Shown here piece after piece: positions 2,146-12,383 of a stretch of DNA of 12,400 nucleotides. Origin of the DNA: Balneolaceae bacterium (GTDB taxonomy: Bacteria; Bacteroidota; Rhodothermia; Balneolales; Balneolaceae); the NCBI GenBank assembly GCA_007118525.1, contig SKRK01000106.1, forward strand, positions 1-12,400, in the 5' to 3' direction. The notes under the pieces were generated by a model. That model was given only the letters and a program-made list of their open reading frames with translations. It had not been told where the DNA came from and did no database searches. Position numbers and translations under genes: made by a program. The number at the start of each line of letters is the position of its first letter. Position 1 is the stretch's first letter.

Positions 2146-2700
2146 ATGAATATCATTCTGTTTGGCCCACCCGGTGCCGGAAAAGGAACACAGGCAAAAA
2201 AAATGTCTGATCATTTTGGAATACCTCAGCTATCTACCGGAAATATCTTCAGAGAGAACATCAAAAAAGAGACACCGCTTGGGAAAAAAGTAAAGTCTAT
2301 TTTGGATGCCGGCCGGCTTGTGCCCGACGAAACGGTTGTGGATCTGGTTACAGACGAGCTCGAAAAGAATGACTATAAAAATGGGGTTATACTTGACGGT
2401 TTTCCCAGAACTGTAAACCAGGCAGAAGCGCTCGAGGTTTATCTTTCTGAAAAAGGGGAAACCATCGACTATTTTATAACTCTTGATGTCCCCGAAGAGG
2501 AACTGGTGGAACGGATCCTCAGCCGTGGTGAGGGGAGGAGTGATGATACTGCTGAAAAGGTGAAGACCCGGTTGAAGATCTATCGCGATGAAACAGAACC
2601 CGTGCTGAATTACTATAAAGAGAAAGGCGCTGTAAAAGAGATTAATGGAGTTGGTTCGATTGAGGAGATATTTAACCGAATAAAAAACGCTGTTTCTTAA
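2146..2700 (+). CDS. adk: Adenylate kinase
   Basis: Encodes a 184-residue adenylate kinase (ATP + AMP to 2 ADP), a cytoplasmic housekeeping enzyme of nucleotide balance. The P-loop GPPGAGKGTQ is at residues 7-16, the AMP-binding STGNIFRE at 30-37, the DGFPRT motif at 84-89, and the Arg-rich ATP/LID contact RSDDTAEKVKTRL at 131-143. The LID is the short type without the inserted Cys4 zinc-finger-like domain, which explains the length below the 214 residues of E. coli Adk. It stands apart from rplS behind a terminator and thus probably has its own promoter in 2023-2145, though I could not place one firmly. The leader before the ATG (TATTAAA) has no Shine-Dalgarno. It converges on the minus-strand metalloenzyme gene. 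Confidence 0.97.
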   Translation: MNIILFGPPGAGKGTQAKKMSDHFGIPQLSTGNIFRENIKKETPLGKKVKSILDAGRLVPDETVVDLVTDELEKNDYKNGVILDGFPRTVNQAEALEVYLSEKGETIDYFITLDVPEEELVERILSRGEGRSDDTAEKVKTRLKIYRDETEPVLNYYKEKGAVKEINGVGSIEEIFNRIKNAVS

Positions 2701-2783
2701 AGTCACCTTAATTAGAGCCGAGGGCGATGTCCCCCTGAATGTTGATTTGACTTCGAATTCACTACGTTTCATCCCCTATTGAC

Positions 2784-2819
2784 CTCCGCCTTCCGGTGGA
2801 GTCCCGTCAGCTGTCGGGA
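2784..2819. repeat. REP-like double palindrome between convergent genes
   Basis: Two hairpins abut directly. The first, CTCCGCC-TTCC-GGTGGAG (2784-2801), has seven pairs including one G-U. The second, TCCCGTCAGCTGTCGGGA (2802-2819), is a palindrome broken by a single T-T mismatch. The GC-rich pair stands out against the surrounding AT-rich DNA and sits between the convergent adk and metalloenzyme genes. The layout resembles dispersed palindromic (REP/BIME) elements. It may also stop transcription from both sides, but no T-run follows. Copy number elsewhere is unknown from this window. Confidence 0.5.
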
Positions 2820-2876
2820 TTAATTAATTAATTTCTCTCTCGAAGGGATATCTATGGGAATCACACATTAAATACT

Positions 2877-3773
2877 CTAATCGTCTATCAAAACCTCCAA
2901 AATAGCAGGGGTAACGTCTGTAATACTCTTTACATTTTTGAACGGTTCAGTATTTCCTTTCACAAATAGGGGAACAGGATTTCGTGTATGAGTTTTAGTC
3001 GTTAGATCTTCCAGATTACCATGATCACTCGTTATTACAAGTGTATCAGAAGGTTTAATCTTTTTTATAATACCCATTAAAAACTCATCCAGCCTCCTCA
3101 ATACGATATCCGCTTTCTCCCGGTTCATCTCATGGCCGGCTTTATCGGTTAAATAGTATTCATAGAGTACCAAATCATAATTTCTTAAAGCGTTCAGCGC
3201 TCTTTTAGACGCTTCAACCGGCTTAATCTCCGGTACATCGAGCCCCAGCATATCACGCCATGCATTCTGTATGATTTCAGCTGTAATCGCTTTACCCTCT
3301 TTTATATCTTCAATTTTATTTAACCTTATCCCGGCTGAACGAACCATTAAGGTTGTACTCGTCCAGCGATCTCTGATTTCAGATTTTTTAAAAAAAATGT
3401 CGGGATAGGCATTCAAAAAATGAGGTTCTTTACCCAGTTCGATTACCTTTTTAAATAGACTGTTCTTTACAAGTAGAGGTTTGGTACTCGAATACGGATA
3501 GGGACCAAAATGTTTACCAATCATTTCTGAAGCATTTATACCTGAAAAGAGAGTTACCTGACCGGTACCGCTTTGTGGTAATCCTTTCACACCCAGGTTA
3601 GCGTCGATAGTTTTAAATAATTTCGTATCTCCAATAACTTCTTCACACTCCCTGTGGAATCCATTTTTCCCGGTAAAAAAAGAGAAACTTTTTAATTCTT
3701 TATCTGCTAAAGGATTCAATGAATGATTTTCACCAACGCCTATTCCATCAATAAAAATAAAAAGAAGAGACAT
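2877..3773 (-). CDS. Alkaline-phosphatase-superfamily metalloenzyme (phosphoglycerate-mutase-like)
   Basis: Encodes 298 residues of the alkaline phosphatase / cofactor-independent phosphoglycerate mutase superfamily. Visible metal-site pieces are IDGIGVG (Asp9), the nucleophile loop LPQSGTGQVTLFSG (66-78, Ser68 or Thr70), TDKAGH (Asp210, His214), SDHGN (Asp250, His251) and His262. This covers the usual two-metal set. At 298 residues it is much shorter than iPGM (about 510) and lacks its inserted domain, so it is not a full glycolytic mutase. Related short members are annotated only as metalloenzyme or phosphodiesterase, and the substrate is unknown. The ATG shares its A with the TAA of the preceding gene dtd (TAATG), so the two are translationally coupled. 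No signal peptide is seen, so it is likely cytoplasmic. Confidence 0.85.
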   Translation of the reverse strand: MSLLFIFIDGIGVGENHSLNPLADKELKSFSFFTGKNGFHRECEEVIGDTKLFKTIDANLGVKGLPQSGTGQVTLFSGINASEMIGKHFGPYPYSSTKPLLVKNSLFKKVIELGKEPHFLNAYPDIFFKKSEIRDRWTSTTLMVRSAGIRLNKIEDIKEGKAITAEIIQNAWRDMLGLDVPEIKPVEASKRALNALRNYDLVLYEYYLTDKAGHEMNREKADIVLRRLDEFLMGIIKKIKPSDTLVITSDHGNLEDLTTKTHTRNPVPLFVKGNTEPFKNVKSITDVTPAILEVLIDD

Positions 3774-4213
3774 TATTTTTCCAGTATGAGAGTAACAGGT
3801 CCATCGTTAATCAGCTCTACTTCCATCATTGCTCCAAATTGACCTGATTCTATTTTTAATTCCGTTATTTTTTTAAACTTATCGATCATATAATCATACA
3901 ATGGCTCAGCTTTCTCAGGCCTGGCAGCTTCAATATAACTGGGCCGTGTACCTTTACGGGCATTCCCATACAGGGTAAACTGTGAAACAACCAAAAGACT
4001 CCCTGAGACGTCTGTGACAGATCTATTCATCTTATTCTCCTGATCTTCAAATATCCTGAGTTTGGAAATTTTTTCGCAACACCAATTTACCTCCTTTTCA
4101 GTATCACTTTCATGAATACCCACAAGCAGTAGAAGGCCATGACCAATCTCGCCTGAAATTGAATTATTTATGGTTACTGACGCTCTTTTTACCCGTTGAA
4201 TAACAATTTTCAT
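3773..4213 (-). CDS. dtd: D-aminoacyl-tRNA deacylase
   Basis: Encodes a 146-residue DTD, which removes D-amino acids (and glycine mischarged on tRNA-Ala) from tRNA. Starting from the ATG at 4213 the family motifs fall in place: MKIVIQRVKRASV at the N-terminus, SQFTLYG (77-83), GTRPSY (88-93), FGAMMEV (126-132) and the cross-subunit Gly-cisPro signature NDGPVT (136-141). The frame stays open upstream to an ATG at 4291, but those 26 extra residues match no DTD N-terminus and would be encoded by the DnaA-box cluster, so I reject them. The first DnaA-like box ends two bases from this ATG, so DnaA binding could affect dtd expression. It overlaps the downstream metalloenzyme start by one base. Confidence 0.95.
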   Translation of the reverse strand: MKIVIQRVKRASVTINNSISGEIGHGLLLLVGIHESDTEKEVNWCCEKISKLRIFEDQENKMNRSVTDVSGSLLVVSQFTLYGNARKGTRPSYIEAARPEKAEPLYDYMIDKFKKITELKIESGQFGAMMEVELINDGPVTLILEK

Positions 4214-4214
4214 A

Positions 4215-4292
4215 TGTGGATTAAAGTGTGGATAAAGTGGTTTAAACTTGTGGAGAATTTTATTTACTTCATAAACAGAATACTTCTCCACA
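4215..4292. promoter_or_regulatory. Left DnaA-box cluster
   Basis: Four boxes occur in 78 bases: TGTGGATTA (4215), the exact TGTGGATAA (4227), TGTGGAGAA (4249) and, inverted, TTCTCCACA (4284). The first three are in the same orientation with starts 12 and 22 bases apart, close to one and two helical turns. The last two form a 9-base perfect inverted repeat. The cluster begins two bases from the dtd ATG and could serve both as origin and as DnaA-responsive control of dtd. Confidence 0.7.
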
Positions 4293-4376
4293 TCAATTCA
4301 CAAAAAAATGAAGTTCTTAACAGTACAAACTAATAACTTTTGATGTTGATGACATTTTTAAATGTTACAGGTGCGA

Positions 4377-4450
4377 TTTATAAAAAATGTGAATTACTAA
4401 AAATTTAACAATTTAAATTATTGTTTTTATTCATTTAGTTATTAACAAAG
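4377..4450. other. AT-rich candidate unwinding region
   Basis: Nearly all bases are A or T, with runs such as AAAAATTTAACAATTTAAATTATTG. One DnaA-like box (TGTGAATTA, 4388-4396) lies inside and another (TTCTTCACA, 4451-4459) at its edge. Position between the two box clusters fits a duplex unwinding element, but AT-richness alone is weak evidence. Confidence 0.45.
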
Positions 4451-4505
4451 TTCTTCACAATCAATCTTCACTGATTGTATAAGTAAGGATAAATAACTTA
4501 TAAAC

Positions 4506-4575
4506 ATTTCCACACTGTCTACTACTATACTACAAAATTCAAAATCCAATACTTTTAGTTATTACCTGTGGATAA
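4506..4575 (+). other. DnaA box plus DnaA-trio-like module
   Basis: The box ATTTCCACA (4506-4514, one mismatch) is followed by a four-base spacer and then CTACTACTATACTAC (4519-4533). The opposite strand thus reads 3'-GAT-GAT-GAT, which is the DnaA-trio pattern known from Bacillus subtilis, where trios next to DnaA boxes direct DnaA filament growth on single strand. An A/T-rich stretch follows (4534-4564), then an exact inverted box at 4567-4575. The order box, trio, AT-rich DNA matches the basal unwinding system; the last two triplets are out of register by two bases. Confidence 0.55.
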
Positions 4576-4671
4576 CATCCCCGAATAAACCTAAAAGGTA
4601 AGTATCAATCTTTTTATATTTCACACTTGAAATATGAAAAAAATATTATTCAATAATTTTAAAGCATTAAA

Positions 4672-5676
4672 GTGTCAGAAAAAAAATTTACCTATAAAGA
4701 TTCCGGTGTAGATATAAAAGCTGGTGAAGAGTTGGTTAACTCCATTAAAGATGTTGTAAAAGAAACCCATAATGCAAATGTACTGAGTAATATTGGAGGA
4801 TTTGGTGCACTCTTCGCTGCAGATTTTAAAAAATATAAAGAACCTGTTCTAGTGAGCAGTGTGGATGGAGTAGGTACAAAATTAATAGTAGCATTTAAAG
4901 CGGGAAAATATGATACCGTTGGCCAGGACCTGGTAAATCATTGCGTTAATGATATTGCTGTATGTGGAGCTACACCACTTTTCTTTTTAGACTACTTTTC
5001 AACCGGTAAGCTGGAACAGAGTATAGGTTACAATGTAATTAAAGGGTTTTCAAAAGCATGCAAAGAGAATGGTGTTGCTTTAATTGGCGGTGAAACAGCG
5101 GAGATGCCGGATATTTATAAAGAGGGTGAGTTTGACCTTGCCGGTACTATTGTAGGTGTTGTTGACCGTGAAAACCTTGTAACCGGTCACAAGATAAGTA
5201 AAGGAGACAGATTAGTTGGTTTTAAAAGCACCGGTCTTCACACCAATGGTTATTCTCTTGCCAGAAATGTTCTATTCAGTGAGTTTGATATTAATGATCG
5301 TGTAGATCTACTTGATGGAACTATAGGTGAGGAGCTACTCCATGTTCATAAATCCTATCTGAATCTTATTACCAATCTTAAAGAAATTGAAGGAGTAAAT
5401 GGGTTCTCACACGTTACCGGAGGGGGAATTGAAGGAAATACAAAGAGAATTTTACCCGAGGGACTAAAGCTTTCAATTGATTGGAGCTGCTGGAAACGCC
5501 CTGCAATTTTCAATCTGATTCAAAAAACAGGCAATGTTCCCGAAGAGGATATGCAAACTACTTTCAATCTTGGTATAGGCTTGGTGGCGGTAGTAAGTGA
5601 ATCAGCTATTAAAAAGGTTAAGGCAGCTGCAGATCATTTGAATGAAGAACTTATTCAAATTGGAGAAGTTGTTTAA
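4672..5676 (+). CDS. purM: Phosphoribosylformylglycinamidine cyclo-ligase (AIR synthetase)
   Basis: Encodes a 334-residue PurM, which closes FGAM to aminoimidazole ribonucleotide using ATP, the fifth step of purine synthesis. Motifs: YKDSGVD (8-14), SSVDGVGTKL (62-71), NHCVNDIAVCGA (89-100), GGETAEMP (139-146), GLHTNGYSLAR (188-198), HVTGGGIEGN (247-256) and FNLGIG (298-303). Length is close to the family norm of about 345. The start is GTG at 4672, since the family N-terminus begins a few residues before YKDSGVD and no in-frame ATG lies before it. No Shine-Dalgarno is present; the leader is AT-rich. It stands alone, not in a pur operon, and its promoter must overlap the right part of the oriC candidate, as must any coupling of its expression to replication. 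Confidence 0.97.
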   Translation: MSEKKFTYKDSGVDIKAGEELVNSIKDVVKETHNANVLSNIGGFGALFAADFKKYKEPVLVSSVDGVGTKLIVAFKAGKYDTVGQDLVNHCVNDIAVCGATPLFFLDYFSTGKLEQSIGYNVIKGFSKACKENGVALIGGETAEMPDIYKEGEFDLAGTIVGVVDRENLVTGHKISKGDRLVGFKSTGLHTNGYSLARNVLFSEFDINDRVDLLDGTIGEELLHVHKSYLNLITNLKEIEGVNGFSHVTGGGIEGNTKRILPEGLKLSIDWSCWKRPAIFNLIQKTGNVPEEDMQTTFNLGIGLVAVVSESAIKKVKAAADHLNEELIQIGEVV

Positions 5677-6149: not shown

Positions 6150-8306
6150 TCATTTAAGCAGAAGCATCTTTTCAATTTTTATCTCTGTGTCTGTAGTCAT
6201 TCTATAGAAATAGATCCCGGAGGAGAGGCGGCTTGCGTTGAAAGGAATTTCATAATACCCTACGTTGGTCTGTTGGTCAAATATAGTTTCTATCCTAGAC
6301 CCTAAGGCATTAAAGATCTCAATTTTAACTCTTGTTTGTTCAGGAATTACAATAGGAATTACAGTTTGATTATTAAATGGATTTGGATAGTTATTTCCTA
6401 AGGATGTAATACCATCACTATTGACAAATCTAATTTCAGGCTTGTCATTAAGTTCAAGATCATCTGCAATAATTGTATATCTAACATCCCCTTCTATTCT
6501 GTTTGTAACTGAAAATTGTGCATTTCCCATATAATCAGTTATATCATTTATTACTCTGATATCAGAAAACCCTCCAGTTTGCTTAATTTCTATATAGGCA
6601 TTTTCTACCGGTTCAAACTCACTATTTAAAACGGTAACGGTAATTTTACTACTCTGTTCACCGGTTGCCAATACTCTGTCTATACTTGCTTCAACGGTTG
6701 AATTAGGGACGCTTATATCTTTTGTATTAAATTCAATATTCCCGCCATAGCTAATTCCGCCATCATTGATGGCATAGGCACGAGCATAGTACTTTGTGTT
6801 ACCATTTAGATTTGTAAAGGTAGTTTGAAATAAATCTTCTCCAATTGAACCCGTGCCGCAAGAGTTAGATAATTCCGGGTCAGGTGCGGAATTCCAGCAG
6901 AAACCTGTTTCAGTTATATCTGTTTCCCCCGAATCTAAGATAATCCCTACACCTTCTGCTTTTCCGGCTGAAATATTTAAGACCTCAACGGATTCAACTA
7001 ACGGTGGTTCACTCGATTGTCTGTATGCAGCAACTACATGTTTTATCTCCCTTATACTTCTGGAGTTATCTGAAGGTGAAAAGTTACCCGTATAAGATCC
7101 GGTAGGTACTCCCTGAAAAGTTATATCAGGATTTGAAAATATATTTACAGGCTGATCATCCTGATTATATGTCATTACAGATGTATAGCCAATATTGTTT
7201 GTTCCTGTCCATCTCCATCCCGTTGAATATTCAAAAAGGCCACCACTTGGGCCGGCTGCAGAACTGGATTGATTTCGGCTATGGGCATTTCCCATATTAT
7301 GACCCATTTCATGAACGTGAGTCGTTCCGGCTGCCTGTTGTACTCTTGAAATTGAAAACCCAAATCGCGGAGATCCATCTATACTATTTAATCGCCAGGC
7401 TAACCCTCCAACATCATTTGTTAAGGTGAATAAAGCAACGAGATCTGCTTTATGCAAATCTCTCAAAACATGAACTTCATCCATGTATCCCGAGTATTGA
7501 CTGCCCCATGGAGTAAATGTAGGAGATGTGGTTAATCTTCTAAGATCAACGTAGCTATCATCACTCTCTGTATAATCCACTAATGCACTATGTACCAGCC
7601 TGAATTCAAGATCAATCTCGGAATTATCTATTGTTTCCTGAGCTACAGCCATTGATTGGTTTATAATATTTTGAATGCCACTTGAATTTTGCATGGCCCA
7701 GTTTCGGGCATTTACAGTATATACTATCATAACATCTATAACAGCTGTCCCCTCATCAACCTGATCAATATCTTGTTGTTTGAAACTCTGTGAACCTTCT
7801 GTTGTGTGATCGTCATGTATGCCACACGATATTTCATCTCTTTCATGTGGATTTATCTCTATGATTCTATGGCTGTTGGTCTCTTTTGAAAATCTTATTT
7901 CAAAAAAACTATGGTCATCAATATTGTTAATGCTTGAAAGAATCATCCCTTCCGAATAAGAGAGTGTAAAACTATTTCTCCAATCACCGTTTATATGGCC
8001 TGTAATTGACCAGTCGTCATTAAGGTGACTTATTACTCTTTTTACCTCAACGGTATATTTTTCACTGTCTAAACTCTCTATCTCAAAGCTTGTGATCAGG
8101 CCATTTCTGATATCAGTTAAAACCGATAGATTAAATTCTACAGGTGCTTTTTTTATATCAGAGACCGATTTGGCAGGCCATTCAGTCTCTATATTCCCTG
8201 ATAACTCAAATAATTTATTACTCTGCTGTGCATGGAGAGCATTGCTGCTAAAAAATAGGAAAAATGTAAGCAGCACATATTTTAAAAGCGGTAATGGATA
8301 ATTCAA
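6150..8306 (-). CDS. Secreted zinc metalloprotease with type IX secretion tail
   Basis: Encodes 718 residues. A signal peptide (about 1-27, hydrophobic LLTFFLFFSS, cleavage near HAQQ) is followed by a propeptide-like part to about 185. The catalytic domain has the zincin motif HEMGHNMGNAH (His332, Glu333, His336, His342) and a Met-turn SVMTYN (Met378), the reprolysin-like/metzincin layout. Next come a fibronectin-like domain of the Bacteroidota type (GFCWNSAPDP, then YYARAYAINDGG; about 435-528), an Ig-like domain (about 535-628), and a T9SS type A sorting domain (NYPNPFN at 639-645, ending KIEKMLLLK). It is expected to be exported by Sec, crossed by T9SS, and released or anchored outside. 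The only suitable start is TTG at 8306, because TAA closes the frame 27 bases upstream; GTG at residue 11 would cut into the signal peptide. Confidence 0.92.
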   Translation of the reverse strand: MNYPLPLLKYVLLTFFLFFSSNALHAQQSNKLFELSGNIETEWPAKSVSDIKKAPVEFNLSVLTDIRNGLITSFEIESLDSEKYTVEVKRVISHLNDDWSITGHINGDWRNSFTLSYSEGMILSSINNIDDHSFFEIRFSKETNSHRIIEINPHERDEISCGIHDDHTTEGSQSFKQQDIDQVDEGTAVIDVMIVYTVNARNWAMQNSSGIQNIINQSMAVAQETIDNSEIDLEFRLVHSALVDYTESDDSYVDLRRLTTSPTFTPWGSQYSGYMDEVHVLRDLHKADLVALFTLTNDVGGLAWRLNSIDGSPRFGFSISRVQQAAGTTHVHEMGHNMGNAHSRNQSSSAAGPSGGLFEYSTGWRWTGTNNIGYTSVMTYNQDDQPVNIFSNPDITFQGVPTGSYTGNFSPSDNSRSIREIKHVVAAYRQSSEPPLVESVEVLNISAGKAEGVGIILDSGETDITETGFCWNSAPDPELSNSCGTGSIGEDLFQTTFTNLNGNTKYYARAYAINDGGISYGGNIEFNTKDISVPNSTVEASIDRVLATGEQSSKITVTVLNSEFEPVENAYIEIKQTGGFSDIRVINDITDYMGNAQFSVTNRIEGDVRYTIIADDLELNDKPEIRFVNSDGITSLGNNYPNPFNNQTVIPIVIPEQTRVKIEIFNALGSRIETIFDQQTNVGYYEIPFNASRLSSGIYFYRMTTDTEIKIEKMLLLK

Positions 8307-8354: not shown

Positions 8355-9686
8355 TCAGATGTTTAAATGTAGTTTATTGATACGATTTTGGAACTGTTTA
8401 ATAGCATATTCCAGGAACCACTCTTTATCTAAACCAAACGGGACCACATCATACGGTTCAAAAATTTCATGAATGATGTTGGTAGCATCATTGAGCAGCT
8501 CTTCCAACTCATCCTCAAATGGACCTCTTAAACCGGGGTTATCACTAAGAAGGCGGTTTATCAGGTATAACCCGTAGGCGATATGGCGCGATTCGTCCTG
8601 TTTTAACAGTGTAATCCCTTTTTGCATTCCTGGAAGAAGATCATTCTCCTTCAGCATTTTATGGTAGGCCTCATAGCCCGTTTCTGCCAGGGTCCCCTCT
8701 ACAATCATATTGTAAGTTCCGGAAGCCTTTAGTTGTGAGAGGGGGGATGCATCCTCTGTCAGTCGATTCATCGCGATAGGTAGTTTTTCATAAAACAGAA
8801 CTTTATAAAAAGGGCCGTGGAACGCCTCAAAATCCGGCCGGCTTACCATCACCTCATTTACAAATCTTGAGAAGAACTCGGTGTGTTTAGCCTCTTCCCA
8901 GAGGAATGAGGTAAGGAACATCTCCTCTTCTATTCGGCCTTCACTTGCAATCACCTGGATAAGGGGAAGTATATCAAGTGTCACAGCTTCTTCACCCGCC
9001 ATGAAAAGTGCGGAAAGGTGTGTAATTATTTTCTTCTCTTCATCAGAGAGTTGCTGCCACTGCTCCCTGTCTTTTGAAAAATCGATATCTGATGGATTCC
9101 AAATCCCATACTTTTTGGCCTTTTGAAACAACTGCATCGGAAAACTTTCAAAATTCAGGCCCTTTGACGTGGTAATGAACTTTTTATGTTTTAATGTCCC
9201 TCTCTTCTGAGCTTTATCTGTTTTTTTTGAATCAACCTGATTTACATGTTGAGCAGAATAAACAGGGGCTGTTTCCAAAAGTGCTTTTGCGGCTTTACGA
9301 TGCGTAGACAGAGTTACCAGGCTGCCCTTTTCAAGCTTCAGTTTTCCCTTCATAATAGACATGGTTGGATCCTTCTTCTCCTCAATCAATTTAATCCATG
9401 TTGTCTTATCAGCTTTTAAAATAACATCCGAAATATCTTCATCTTCAGGCTTGGCAAATCTCATATCATAACACTCGCCGTATTGCAGATTTAAAAAAAA
9501 TCCTATTGCGTTTTCAGAATTTAGCACATCAGGTATCGGATCGAATTTAAGTATTAATGGTGCATTCCAGTTCTTCCCTTTATTTTTGTAATCCGTACTG
9601 TTTTTTAAAGAAACTTTCCACTCTCCTAACCATTTTCTGGTAAAGTAACTCTGTATATCCTGACTCTCTTTTTTTTTAAACCACAT
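8355..9686 (-). CDS. SCP2 domain fused to R2-like ligand-binding oxidase
   Basis: Encodes 443 residues in two parts. Residues about 10-140 fit an SCP2 sterol-carrier domain (NAPLILKFDP, LNLQYGECYDMRFAKPED, IMKGKLKLEKGSL, then HRKAAKALLE). A Lys/Thr/Ser-rich linker (141-172) leads to an R2-like ligand-binding oxidase (R2lox): GLNFESFPMQLFQKAKKYGIWNPSDIDF, AGEEAVTLDILPLI, EEEMFLTSFLWEEAKHTEFF. All six ligands for the Mn/Fe site are present by alignment to Rv0233 of Mycobacterium tuberculosis: Glu232, Glu265, His268, Glu330, Glu365, His368; so is the Val235-Tyr325 pair that forms the ether cross-link in R2lox. R2lox binds a long-chain fatty acid, which fits the lipid-carrier partner. It is not a ribonucleotide reductase R2 in the radical-transfer sense. 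It has no signal peptide. It is divergent from mnmG, and its start ATG is well placed. Confidence 0.9.
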   Translation of the reverse strand: MWFKKKESQDIQSYFTRKWLGEWKVSLKNSTDYKNKGKNWNAPLILKFDPIPDVLNSENAIGFFLNLQYGECYDMRFAKPEDEDISDVILKADKTTWIKLIEEKKDPTMSIMKGKLKLEKGSLVTLSTHRKAAKALLETAPVYSAQHVNQVDSKKTDKAQKRGTLKHKKFITTSKGLNFESFPMQLFQKAKKYGIWNPSDIDFSKDREQWQQLSDEEKKIITHLSALFMAGEEAVTLDILPLIQVIASEGRIEEEMFLTSFLWEEAKHTEFFSRFVNEVMVSRPDFEAFHGPFYKVLFYEKLPIAMNRLTEDASPLSQLKASGTYNMIVEGTLAETGYEAYHKMLKENDLLPGMQKGITLLKQDESRHIAYGLYLINRLLSDNPGLRGPFEDELEELLNDATNIIHEIFEPYDVVPFGLDKEWFLEYAIKQFQNRINKLHLNI

Positions 9687-9845: not shown

Positions 9846-11735
9846 ATGGATAGTCTACATCCCGCTTATGACGTTATTGTAGTGGGTGCGGGTCACGCCG
9901 GCAGTGAAGCGGCCGGCGCAGCTGCTAAAATGGGGTCAAAAACCCTGCTGATTACAATGAATCTTGATGCAATTGCGAAGATGTCGTGTAACCCGGCTAT
10001 GGGCGGAGTTGCAAAAGGTCAACTCGTTAGAGAGATAGACGCTCTTGGCGGACTAAGCGGAATAGTAAGTGATCAGAGCGGAGTACAGTTTAGAATGCTG
10101 AATCTCTCAAAAGGTCCGGCTATGTGGAGCCCGCGCTGCCAAAGTGATCGTATGCTCTACTCTCAAAAGATGAGAGAGCAGCTGGAATCGATTCCAAATC
10201 TCTATTTCAGGCAGGATAATGTGGTTGATATCTTAACAGAGGATTCCGGTAAGAAGGTTATAGGGGTGAGAACTCAAACCGGACAAACGTTTCTTTCAAA
10301 TTCTGTAGTGCTTACAAGCGGAACGTTTTTAAATGGACTGATTCACATTGGTGAAAGTCAGCATGGTGGAGGTCGCTCAGGAGAGAGAGCCTCCATAGGG
10401 ATTTCAGCATCTCTTGAAAAACTTGGGTTTGATATTGGAAGATTAAAAACAGGCACGCCTCCCAGAATTGACGGGAGGTCTATCGACTACTCAAAGCTTG
10501 AGATACAATATGGTGATGAAGATCCGAGTCCTTTCTCTTTTATGACGGATAATCTTCCGGGAGTAAAGGAGCAGCTTACCTGCTGGATCGGCTATACCAA
10601 CAATGAGGTTCATGAGACATTAAAAACCGGCTTCGATAGAAGTCCTATGTTTAATGGACGTATTAAATCTGTTGGACCCAGGTATTGTCCAAGTATCGAA
10701 GATAAGATCAACAGGTTTGAAGATAGGGACAGGCACCAGTTGTTTTTGGAACCAGAAGGGTGGAATACATATGAAATGTACCTGAACGGGTTTTCCACTT
10801 CACTGCCAGAAGATGTACAATATCAGTCACTTAGGAAAATACCGGGTTTTGAAGAGGCTGTTATGCTTCGTCCCGGTTATGCAATAGAATACGACTATTT
10901 TCCACCCTATCAGGTAAAGCGCAGCCTTGAAACCAAAAAGGTGGATGGCCTATTCTTTGCCGGACAAATTAACGGAACCACCGGTTATGAAGAAGCCGCC
11001 TGTCAGGGCTTAATTGCAGGTATTAATTCAGCTCTTTATGTTGAGAATAAAGAGCCCTTTGTTTTAAAAAGATCGGAAGCCTACATAGGCGTTTTAATTG
11101 ATGATTTAATTAACAAGGGGACGGAAGAGCCCTATCGCATGTTTACCTCAAGAGCCGAGCACAGAATATTGCTTCGCCAGGATAATGCAGATCTGCGTCT
11201 AACGGAATTGGGGTATCGTATCGGTTTGGTTGATGAGGAGAGGTATAAGAGATTCTCAAAGAAGAAGAGTGAAATTGATCGTTTATATGATCTGATCAAC
11301 GATTATACGGTGCGCCCTGAAAAAATGGATCAGATGCTTAAATCGAAGGGGACTTCAGCTCTTACGCAACCTGTTAAGGCAAAAACGGTGATCCCCAGGC
11401 CGGAGATACATCTTCAAGACTTATTGGATGCAGATAATGAGTTAAACAACAGGGTCTCAGAAATTACGCAAAACCATTATGTACTCGAACAGGTGGAAAT
11501 CCAGATCAAATATGATGGTTACATAAAACGTGAATTTGAAATGGTAGAAGAGATCAGCAAACAGGAGAATTCAGAAATTCCCTTAGAGCTCGACTACGAA
11601 AAAATAAAAAGCCTCTCTTCAGAAGGCAAAAGCAAACTACAGAAAATTAAACCGGAGACTATTGGGCAGGCCTCACGAATCAGCGGAGTGTCCGCAAGTG
11701 ATGTGGCGGTTCTGATGGTTTACTTAAAACGATAG
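9846..11735 (+). CDS. mnmG: tRNA uridine-5-carboxymethylaminomethyl modification enzyme MnmG
   Basis: Encodes a 629-residue FAD enzyme that, with MnmE, installs the (carboxymethyl)aminomethyl group on U34 of tRNAs. Visible are the Rossmann FAD motif [10 protein letters not shown] (14-23), CNPAMGG (48-54), RLKTGTPPR (199-207), the signature [11 protein letters not shown] (277-287), [14 protein letters not shown] (371-384), and [15 protein letters not shown] (426-440). The helical C-terminus ends with [19 protein letters not shown], the MnmE-binding region. Full length for the family (about 620-630). The ATG at 9846 puts YDVIVVGAG at the usual place. Its stop is directly followed by the rsmG start with a parS site, so mnmG and rsmG form an operon near the origin, the old gidA-gidB order. 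Confidence 0.98.
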
Positions 11736-12383
11736 GTGTTTCACGTGAAACATGGGTACAAAAGAGTTGAAGTTAATATCAGCGCGCTTCAGAAGGCCAG
11801 GAAGATATATCAAGATAACGAGAGGGATTTAGAGAATTACCTTGATCACCTCCTGGACTGGAATAGTAAGATTAACCTGGTAAGCCGTACTGTTTCACGT
11901 GAAACATTAAGAGAGCATATTGTTCACTCGCTCATTCCGGTTGCGCTTAATATGACGGATAATCACATAAAATGGATCGATGCCGGAACTGGAGGGGGGC
12001 TTCCGGGTATTCCTCTCGCTATAACAGACCGCGATGCTTATTGGTTGCTGAATGATAATGTTAAGAAGAAGATGACGGCGGTAGAAGATATTGTTAAATC
12101 TGTAGGGTTAAAAAATGTGAAAGTTCTGGCGATGAGTATTTCCCTGGCAGAACTTCATAAAGGAACAGGGATAGTGACAAAGCACGCTTTTAAAATAGAT
12201 GATCTGCTAAGGTTGCTGGGTTCAAAACCATGGAAAACAATTCTGATGTGGAAGGGGGTAGAGGGTGCAATTGATGAGTTGAAAGCCTCAAAGAAAAAAC
12301 TGAACTGTACCATTTACGAATTTAAATTCGGTGATAATGAACCCTTTTATGAGGGAAAGGGAATTGTGAAAATTGAGAGATAA
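11736..12383 (+). CDS. rsmG: 16S rRNA (guanine-527-N7)-methyltransferase RsmG
   Basis: Encodes up to 215 residues of RsmG (GidB), which methylates G527 of 16S rRNA, near the streptomycin site. The N-terminal helix region YLDHLLDWNSKINLVSR (35-51) and the SAM-binding loop DAGTGGGLPGIPLAI (82-96) are clear, as are LLNDNVKKK (104-112), LKNVKV (125-130) and the KG turn (WKGVEGA, 172-178). The GRAE-type Arg and the SRA Arg found in most RsmG proteins are not seen (MSIS and TKHAF instead), so the active region has diverged. The start is GTG at 11736, right after the mnmG stop, inside parS; a GTG at 11745 is an alternative. The ATG at 11752 is out of frame. parA/parB genes may follow beyond the window. 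Confidence 0.88.
   Translation: MFHVKHGYKRVEVNISALQKARKIYQDNERDLENYLDHLLDWNSKINLVSRTVSRETLREHIVHSLIPVALNMTDNHIKWIDAGTGGGLPGIPLAITDRDAYWLLNDNVKKKMTAVEDIVKSVGLKNVKVLAMSISLAELHKGTGIVTKHAFKIDDLLRLLGSKPWKTILMWKGVEGAIDELKASKKKLNCTIYEFKFGDNEPFYEGKGIVKIER
11737..11752. other. parS: parS site 1
   Basis: TGTTTCACGTGAAACA matches the 16-bp parS consensus of ParB exactly. The site begins one base after the G of the rsmG GTG start, so the N-terminal residues FHVKH are simply translated parS. Being palindromic it has no strand. ParB loading here would place the segregation nucleoprotein complex at the mnmG-rsmG boundary. Confidence 0.95.
11891..11906. other. parS: parS site 2
   Basis: A second exact TGTTTCACGTGAAACA lies inside rsmG, 154 bases downstream of the first, encoding the residues TVSRETL in the stretch NLVSRTVSRETLR. 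Two perfect copies so close by chance are very unlikely. Their coding role (residues 52-58) means the site and the protein sequence constrain each other. Confidence 0.95.

Follow-up and report, generated by a model that had tools for sequence, protein, structure and literature searches.

The intergenic gap between dtd and purM is very probably the chromosomal replication origin (oriC) of this Balneolaceae bacterium, and probably that of its order. The window analyzed here is the whole 12.4-kb contig C105 of a Balneolaceae MAG (2.07 Mb, 369 contigs, 81% complete), assigned to this family through the named purM sequences closest to its own, and the candidate oriC corresponds to the entire 458-bp gap at positions 4214-4671. 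Twelve DnaA boxes with at most two mismatches were detected in it, and in relatives the locus combines a turn of the GC skew with conservation across the order. The original prediction of a chromosomal origin is supported by this skew turn, observed at the gap in three relatives, and by the boxes kept in relatives, even in three genomes in which purM is no longer adjacent.

The gap is flanked by dtd, encoding D-aminoacyl-tRNA deacylase (3773-4213, minus strand, PF02580), which starts at 4213, and by purM, encoding AIR synthase (4672-5676, plus strand, PF00586/PF02769), which starts at 4672. These flanking genes diverge from each other, as had been claimed. The AT-rich core of the prediction was also recovered, with a GC content of 24-26% (about 75% AT) for the whole gap and 85% AT in two successive 40-base frames of its central part (4374-4453).

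Among the 12 boxes, two were exact copies of TTATCCACA, three carried one mismatch and seven carried two. The exact boxes are located at 4227-4235 and 4567-4575, both on the minus strand. The one-mismatch boxes are located at 4215-4223 (TAATCCACA, minus), 4249-4257 (TTCTCCACA, minus) and 4284-4292 (TTCTCCACA, plus), the last two being inverted partners. Two exact boxes had indeed been predicted, but the estimate of about seven near-matches was too low, as ten are present in the gap. The exact box at 4227 lies at offset 14 from dtd, a position occupied by a box in 17 of 18 same-genus gaps (the window's own counted), and the box at 4284 lies at offset 71, where most same-genus gaps also have a box. 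Two of the two-mismatch boxes form a tandem pair on the plus strand, which consists of TTATAAACA (4498-4506), replaced by TTATCCACA in several relatives, and ATTTCCACA (4506-4514), placed at an 8-nt offset and overlapping the first box by one base. The exact box at 4567 closes the array in inverted orientation, and its TGTGGA is invariant in a 28-row alignment. When the whole window was scanned with 458-bp frames in 50-bp steps, three or more boxes with at most one mismatch were found only in frames overlapping the gap.

Downstream of the tandem pair, a DnaA-trio tract is predicted at 4519-4533 on the minus strand (top strand CTACTACTATACTAC, bottom strand 3'-GAT-GAT-GAT...). The search rule for a basal unwinding module (BUS), as given in the portion of PMC8287927 used here, asks for a DnaA box with three or more trios of the form 3'-NAN-5' no farther than 16 bp from it; tandem boxes are described there as common, and the spacer length peaks at 10-13 from the better box. 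An arrangement following this rule was found in the window at 4498-4527, with the trio tract beginning 12 nt past the first and 4 nt past the second tandem box. The 3'-GAT-5' repeats thus lie on the strand opposite to the tandem boxes, and the inverted exact box follows 33 bp beyond them. The stretch from the trios to this closing box (4534-4566) may be the site of unwinding, and positions 4520-4566 are 77% AT.

The gaps of the order were also searched for a strict form of this module, in which, beyond the published rule, the first trio must read CTA on the complementary strand. On the dtd-to-purM strand, the strict combination of box, spacer and trios was detected in 33 of 62 distinct gaps and missed in 29. 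It was found on the other strand in five of the 62 and in 1.5% of dinucleotide shuffles. At least one of the 33 strict modules (L198) sits at an unusual place in its gap. Only one of the 19 gaps that could be placed in families f3-f5, by handle or by matching coordinates, contained the strict module (L110, taken as G009, f5), compared with 32 of the other 43. This distribution suggests that the strict module is essentially a Balneolaceae feature that was mostly lost in the other families of the order. In the f4 genus to which G012 belongs, the best tandem pair lies about 30 bp closer to dtd and is not followed by trios. When the first 520 bp of each gap were searched for a tandem pair at 8-nt offset with at most three mismatches, 48 of the 62 gaps had one, and none of the single-base shuffles did (100 per gap); the window's own pair, with four mismatches summed, falls outside these 48. 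The core CCACA-N3-6-CTACTACTA yielded 12 matches over 21 whole genomes, 11 in the dtd gap and one elsewhere in G007, so that 11 genomes had a match and 10 had none.

The first four genes of the window, which by their translations we take to be rimM-trmD-rplS-adk, are followed by a metalloenzyme-superfamily gene (minus strand), dtd, the gap and purM. To the right of purM are an AtuA-ferredoxin-like gene, a metallopeptidase-like gene (minus), a ribonucleotide-reductase-small-chain-like gene (minus), mnmG (gidA; 9846-11735, plus, PF01134) and rsmG (gidB; 11736-12383, plus, PF02527). Two exact copies of the palindrome TGTTTCACGTGAAACA, presumably parS sites judging from the parS consensus used to name them, are located within rsmG at 11737-11752 and 11891-11906. 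This segment with mnmG, rsmG and the two parS-like sites (9846-12383) was not mentioned in the original prediction, which described the dtd/purM neighbourhood as unusual. The flanking genes are as described, but the oddness holds only in part, with mnmG, rsmG and parS lying 5-7 kb away. Exact parS-like 14-mers (GTTTCACGTGAAAC) were detected in 12 of 14 genomes, where every site adjoins mnmG at 7-68 kb from the gap; the other two genomes, G051 and G061, had no exact parS. A reversed-sequence control for the 14-mer gave one palindromic site, in G012.

The protein encoded at 6150-8306 is metallopeptidase-like and carries a C-terminal secretion sorting domain, and at 8355-9686 an SCP2-like part and the ribonucleotide-reductase-small-chain-like part share one reading frame. 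An Rfam scan of the window gave no matches at gathering thresholds.

A GC-skew minimum at the gap had been proposed as a check, and the skew was sampled in three relatives assembled as one contig (G025, G061 and G012; 20 samples of 20 kb each). In all three, the two 20-kb samples meeting at the gap have opposite signs, the skew turning there from minus to plus. Left-arm samples were negative in 10/10 (G025), 10/11 (G061) and 7/11 (G012) cases, and right-arm samples were positive in 9/10, 8/9 and 9/9 cases, respectively. Five left-arm samples were positive, namely one of G061 at 1.86 Mb, three of G012 at 1.0-1.7 Mb and one of G012 at 30 kb (+0.005). The four distant ones (1.0-1.86 Mb) would be expected if the terminus does not lie opposite the gap. 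The two negative right-arm samples were those of G025 at +44 kb (-0.009) and of G061 at +130 kb (-0.034). The cumulative skew was also followed over contiguous stretches of 230 kb (G025), 260 kb (G061) and 210 kb (G012). Its minimum lay within the gap in G025, 55 bp away from the centre of the gap; in G012 it was displaced by 2.2 kb and in G061 by 37 kb. The sum at this G061 minimum was -1654, compared with -1549 at the gap. The best single change point coincided with the gap only in G025, and was displaced by 65 kb in G061 and by 40 kb in G012. Each of the three stretches had its densest box cluster in the dtd-purM gap.

In many bacteria the origin is located upstream of dnaA. The true origin could likewise be sought there, with the dtd-purM cluster as a secondary DnaA-binding site, a reading that we consider very unlikely. 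What speaks for it is that two exact DnaA boxes lie close upstream of dnaA in the MAG, within 173 bp of the gene (L032, contig C293, 5922 and 6020), and that equally spaced pairs occur in G025, G061 and G012 (L047, L074 and L075); in all four genomes the two boxes were 98-99 bp apart and shared one orientation. The sequence available upstream of dnaA amounts to 173 bp in the MAG, where the contig ends, and to 276 bp in G012, where the record starts, while 900 bp were read in G025 and G061, where one and two more one-mismatch boxes, respectively, were found beyond the pair. In each genome, only 2-4 boxes with at most one mismatch were present in the 173-900 bp read, and the strict trio module was found on neither strand in any of the four genomes. 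Moreover, no sign change of the skew was observed around dnaA in the three one-contig relatives, where dnaA lies inside an arm, 346 kb (G025), 449 kb (G061) and 269 kb (G012) from dtd, and the flanking samples are of one sign. On these grounds the region upstream of dnaA was rejected as origin, and its conserved box pair probably serves dnaA autoregulation. The gap itself is not beside dnaA, as originally stated: the gene is on another contig (C293) in this MAG, and its distance from dtd is 46-831 kb in the 16 genomes of the order where one contig carries both. The one-contig record of G012 (G012:C1:1-1716) is numbered from just upstream of dnaA, and its skew turn is found about 270 kb away.

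A total of 116 genomes of the order were surveyed, with a dtd match in 104, a purM match in 105 (fragments counted), both in 102 and both on one contig in 95; two weak paralogue-like matches were excluded from these counts. In all 95 genomes with the pair on one contig, dtd and purM point away from each other, with the gap between them. The length of the gap ranges from 395 to 2815 bp, with a median of 506 bp and 60 gaps under 600 bp. The whole gap was contained in 28 of the 30 loci of one set. Within the window's genus, boxes recur at offsets 14, 36, 71, 101, 226, 238, 285/293 and 354 from dtd, not all of them in each genome. Among 80 named loci, dtd was present in 29, and each of these 29 had a divergent gap with 4-12 boxes (at most one mismatch). 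In fifty outgroup loci without dtd, from Ignavibacteria, Neomarinimicrobiota, Geobacter and others, the region upstream of purM (up to 1500 bp) held 0-3 boxes. A further set of 20 gaps, of which 16 came from f3-f5, had 3-9 boxes (at most one mismatch), where single-base shuffling gave means of 0.10-0.40, and of 1.25 in the case of the 2815-bp gap; the offsets were unlike those of the window's genus. Relatives that retain the dtd-purM arrangement therefore also retain the boxes in the cross-genome comparison that had been suggested, and a loss of boxes was not seen in the gaps read. Two of the long gaps, which were read, owe their length to a single additional gene between the candidate origin and purM; it is DinB-like in Balneola sp. 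EhC07 and endonuclease/exonuclease/phosphatase-like in G044. These additional genes are found at L106:9404-9913 and L005:232-1083.

Seven genomes have dtd and purM on different contigs, and three of them were examined. G058 and G114, both from the window's genus, had eight and seven boxes upstream of dtd at the usual offsets, the CCACA-CTACTA core included, and purM elsewhere. The purM contig of G114, assigned by matching coordinates (L101, Balneolaceae), lacked dtd, and no box was found upstream of its purM. In G001, the sole representative of f2, the contig with dtd covers 200 bp of the gap before it ends; three boxes lie in this part, and none were found beside the purM of G001. Since boxes persist beside dtd after the departure of purM in all three genomes, the box array travels with the dtd-side position and not with purM. 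The rearrangement in G058 (L007, 1939-3438) is directly beside the candidate origin and leaves the array intact; the gene that follows in the place of purM is presumably sigma-factor-like, judging from its translation.

DnaA boxes elsewhere also control genes and the timing of initiation, and sites that titrate or regulate DnaA are known under names such as datA and DARS. The gap could be such a site, or a DnaA-controlled divergent promoter of dtd and purM, with no origin function; it is a divergent promoter region in any case. We give this explanation hardly any credence. Neither version of it predicts the skew turn, the nearby parS or the trio-like module, and the array left unchanged beside dtd in G058 and G114 speaks against a role at the purM promoter.

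The probability that the cluster is a mere chance product of AT-rich intergenic DNA appears practically nil, and this explanation can be regarded as already refuted by shuffling and conservation: even at the AT content of the gap, none of 2000 dinucleotide shuffles attained the observed counts in any class (exact, 2 against a mean of 0.0095; at most one mismatch, 5 against 0.21; at most two mismatches, 12 against 2.5), and box positions are kept among same-genus genomes whose Dtd proteins are just 68-77% identical (one at 95%).

If the gap is the origin, its operation can be outlined by analogy with known systems. DnaA would bind the tandem pair at 4498-4514 as well as the array nearer to dtd, with its inverted and direct boxes, and a DnaA-ATP filament would extend from the tandem pair onto the trinucleotide repeats at 4519-4533. 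The filament would then open the AT-rich stretch as far as the closing box at 4567, which is inverted; helicase would be loaded there, and two forks would leave. The new origins would be segregated by ParB bound to the parS sites of rsmG, at a distance of 7 kb.

The gap is with high probability oriC, its parts and presumed mechanism being those of known DnaA origins, and the aspect that is new to us is the order-wide conserved location far from dnaA. The BUS of the Bacillus subtilis oriC (DnaA-box#6/7 and DnaA-trios), according to the sections used of PMC6669920 (EMBO J 2019) and PMC8287927 (NAR 2021), has the same succession of a tandem box pair, a spacer and 3'-GAT-5' repeats. The upstream box is the one nearer to consensus, here in several relatives, and the spacer of 12-13 nt compares with the published peak of 10-13. 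In contrast to B. subtilis, the module described here lies between dtd and purM, away from dnaA, and its strict form is nearly absent in f3-f5.

The oriC of Escherichia coli is also located away from dnaA. It lies between gidA (mnmG) and mioC, as stated in the excerpt consulted of PMC10225481, and an origin near mnmG is thus common to both. Here, however, the flanking genes are dtd and purM, and mnmG lies at a distance of 5 kb, which is larger in relatives; purM and other genes occupy the space in between. In Synechococcus lividus PCC 6715, the oriC is likewise uncoupled from dnaA, being far from dnaA and dnaN (DoriC 10.0, PMC6323995, in the part of the article available to us). The box is TTTTCCACA there and TTATCCACA here, and the case described there is a single cyanobacterium, whereas the arrangement here is order-wide. 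Within the wider Bacteroidetes/Chlorobi assemblage, the oriC of Melioribacter roseus was also predicted at a skew turn, between dnaA and dnaN (PMC3534657, in the passages used). That origin is beside dnaA, unlike the one proposed here, and in our Ignavibacteria-type loci dtd is absent from the region upstream of purM, which holds 0-2 boxes.

There is about an even chance that the order fixed its origin once beside dtd, leaving dnaA tens to hundreds of kb away with a conserved two-box promoter, keeping the mnmG/rsmG-parS centre nearby and a box array in the gap, and changing or losing the trio module in several families. If true, the dose of the initiator gene would be uncoupled from origin firing, and the order would provide an example of turnover of the unwinding module at an origin that stays put. 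For this order, whose members are halophilic and marine bacteria, the gap offers a precise candidate origin, and the box array lying upstream of dtd can serve as a gene-neighbour marker for locating the origin even in fragmented assemblies. Placing oriC at dnaA is likely to mislead in Balneolales; the record of G012, for example, is numbered from a point about 270 kb from the likely origin. The dozens of natural variants also form a good test bed for finding the parts that a box/trio origin needs.

In the literature, no paper was found that joins dtd, purM and a replication origin, or that deals with a Balneolaceae origin; a computed DoriC entry may exist. A search on oriC in Bacteroidetes gave no title on a Balneolales origin among the matches listed. 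Likewise, a search on Balneolota, Balneola or Gracilimonas with oriC or DnaA box gave no Balneola-type name together with oriC among the matches listed.

A second box cluster in the MAG was considered on contig C250 (L033), with exact boxes at 2443, 2564 and 3139 (span 2443-3147). It was rejected, its boxes being spread over 700 bp and partly inside a gene that we take, from its translation, to be P-type-ATPase-like. The boxes at the end of this gene are possibly a titration site.

In seven one-contig genomes from other families of the class, dtd and purM were not adjacent. Upstream of dnaA, exact boxes were detected at distances of up to about 250 bp in G118, G132, G150 and G156 and of up to 400 bp in G121; the record of G117 begins at dnaA. 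G162 had one exact box 500 bp from dnaA and, about 20 kb away, three exact boxes within 162 bp (G162:C1:1491765-1491926), which are possibly the origin in that genome. The skew turned downstream of dnaA in the two genomes sampled, at 904-1000 kb in G118 and at 2343-2700 kb in G121, and we therefore make no claim of an ancestral origin at dnaA. G150 and G156 (family f18) each had two DnaA-like matches, 46-47% and 52-54% identical to the query and about 190-200 kb apart.
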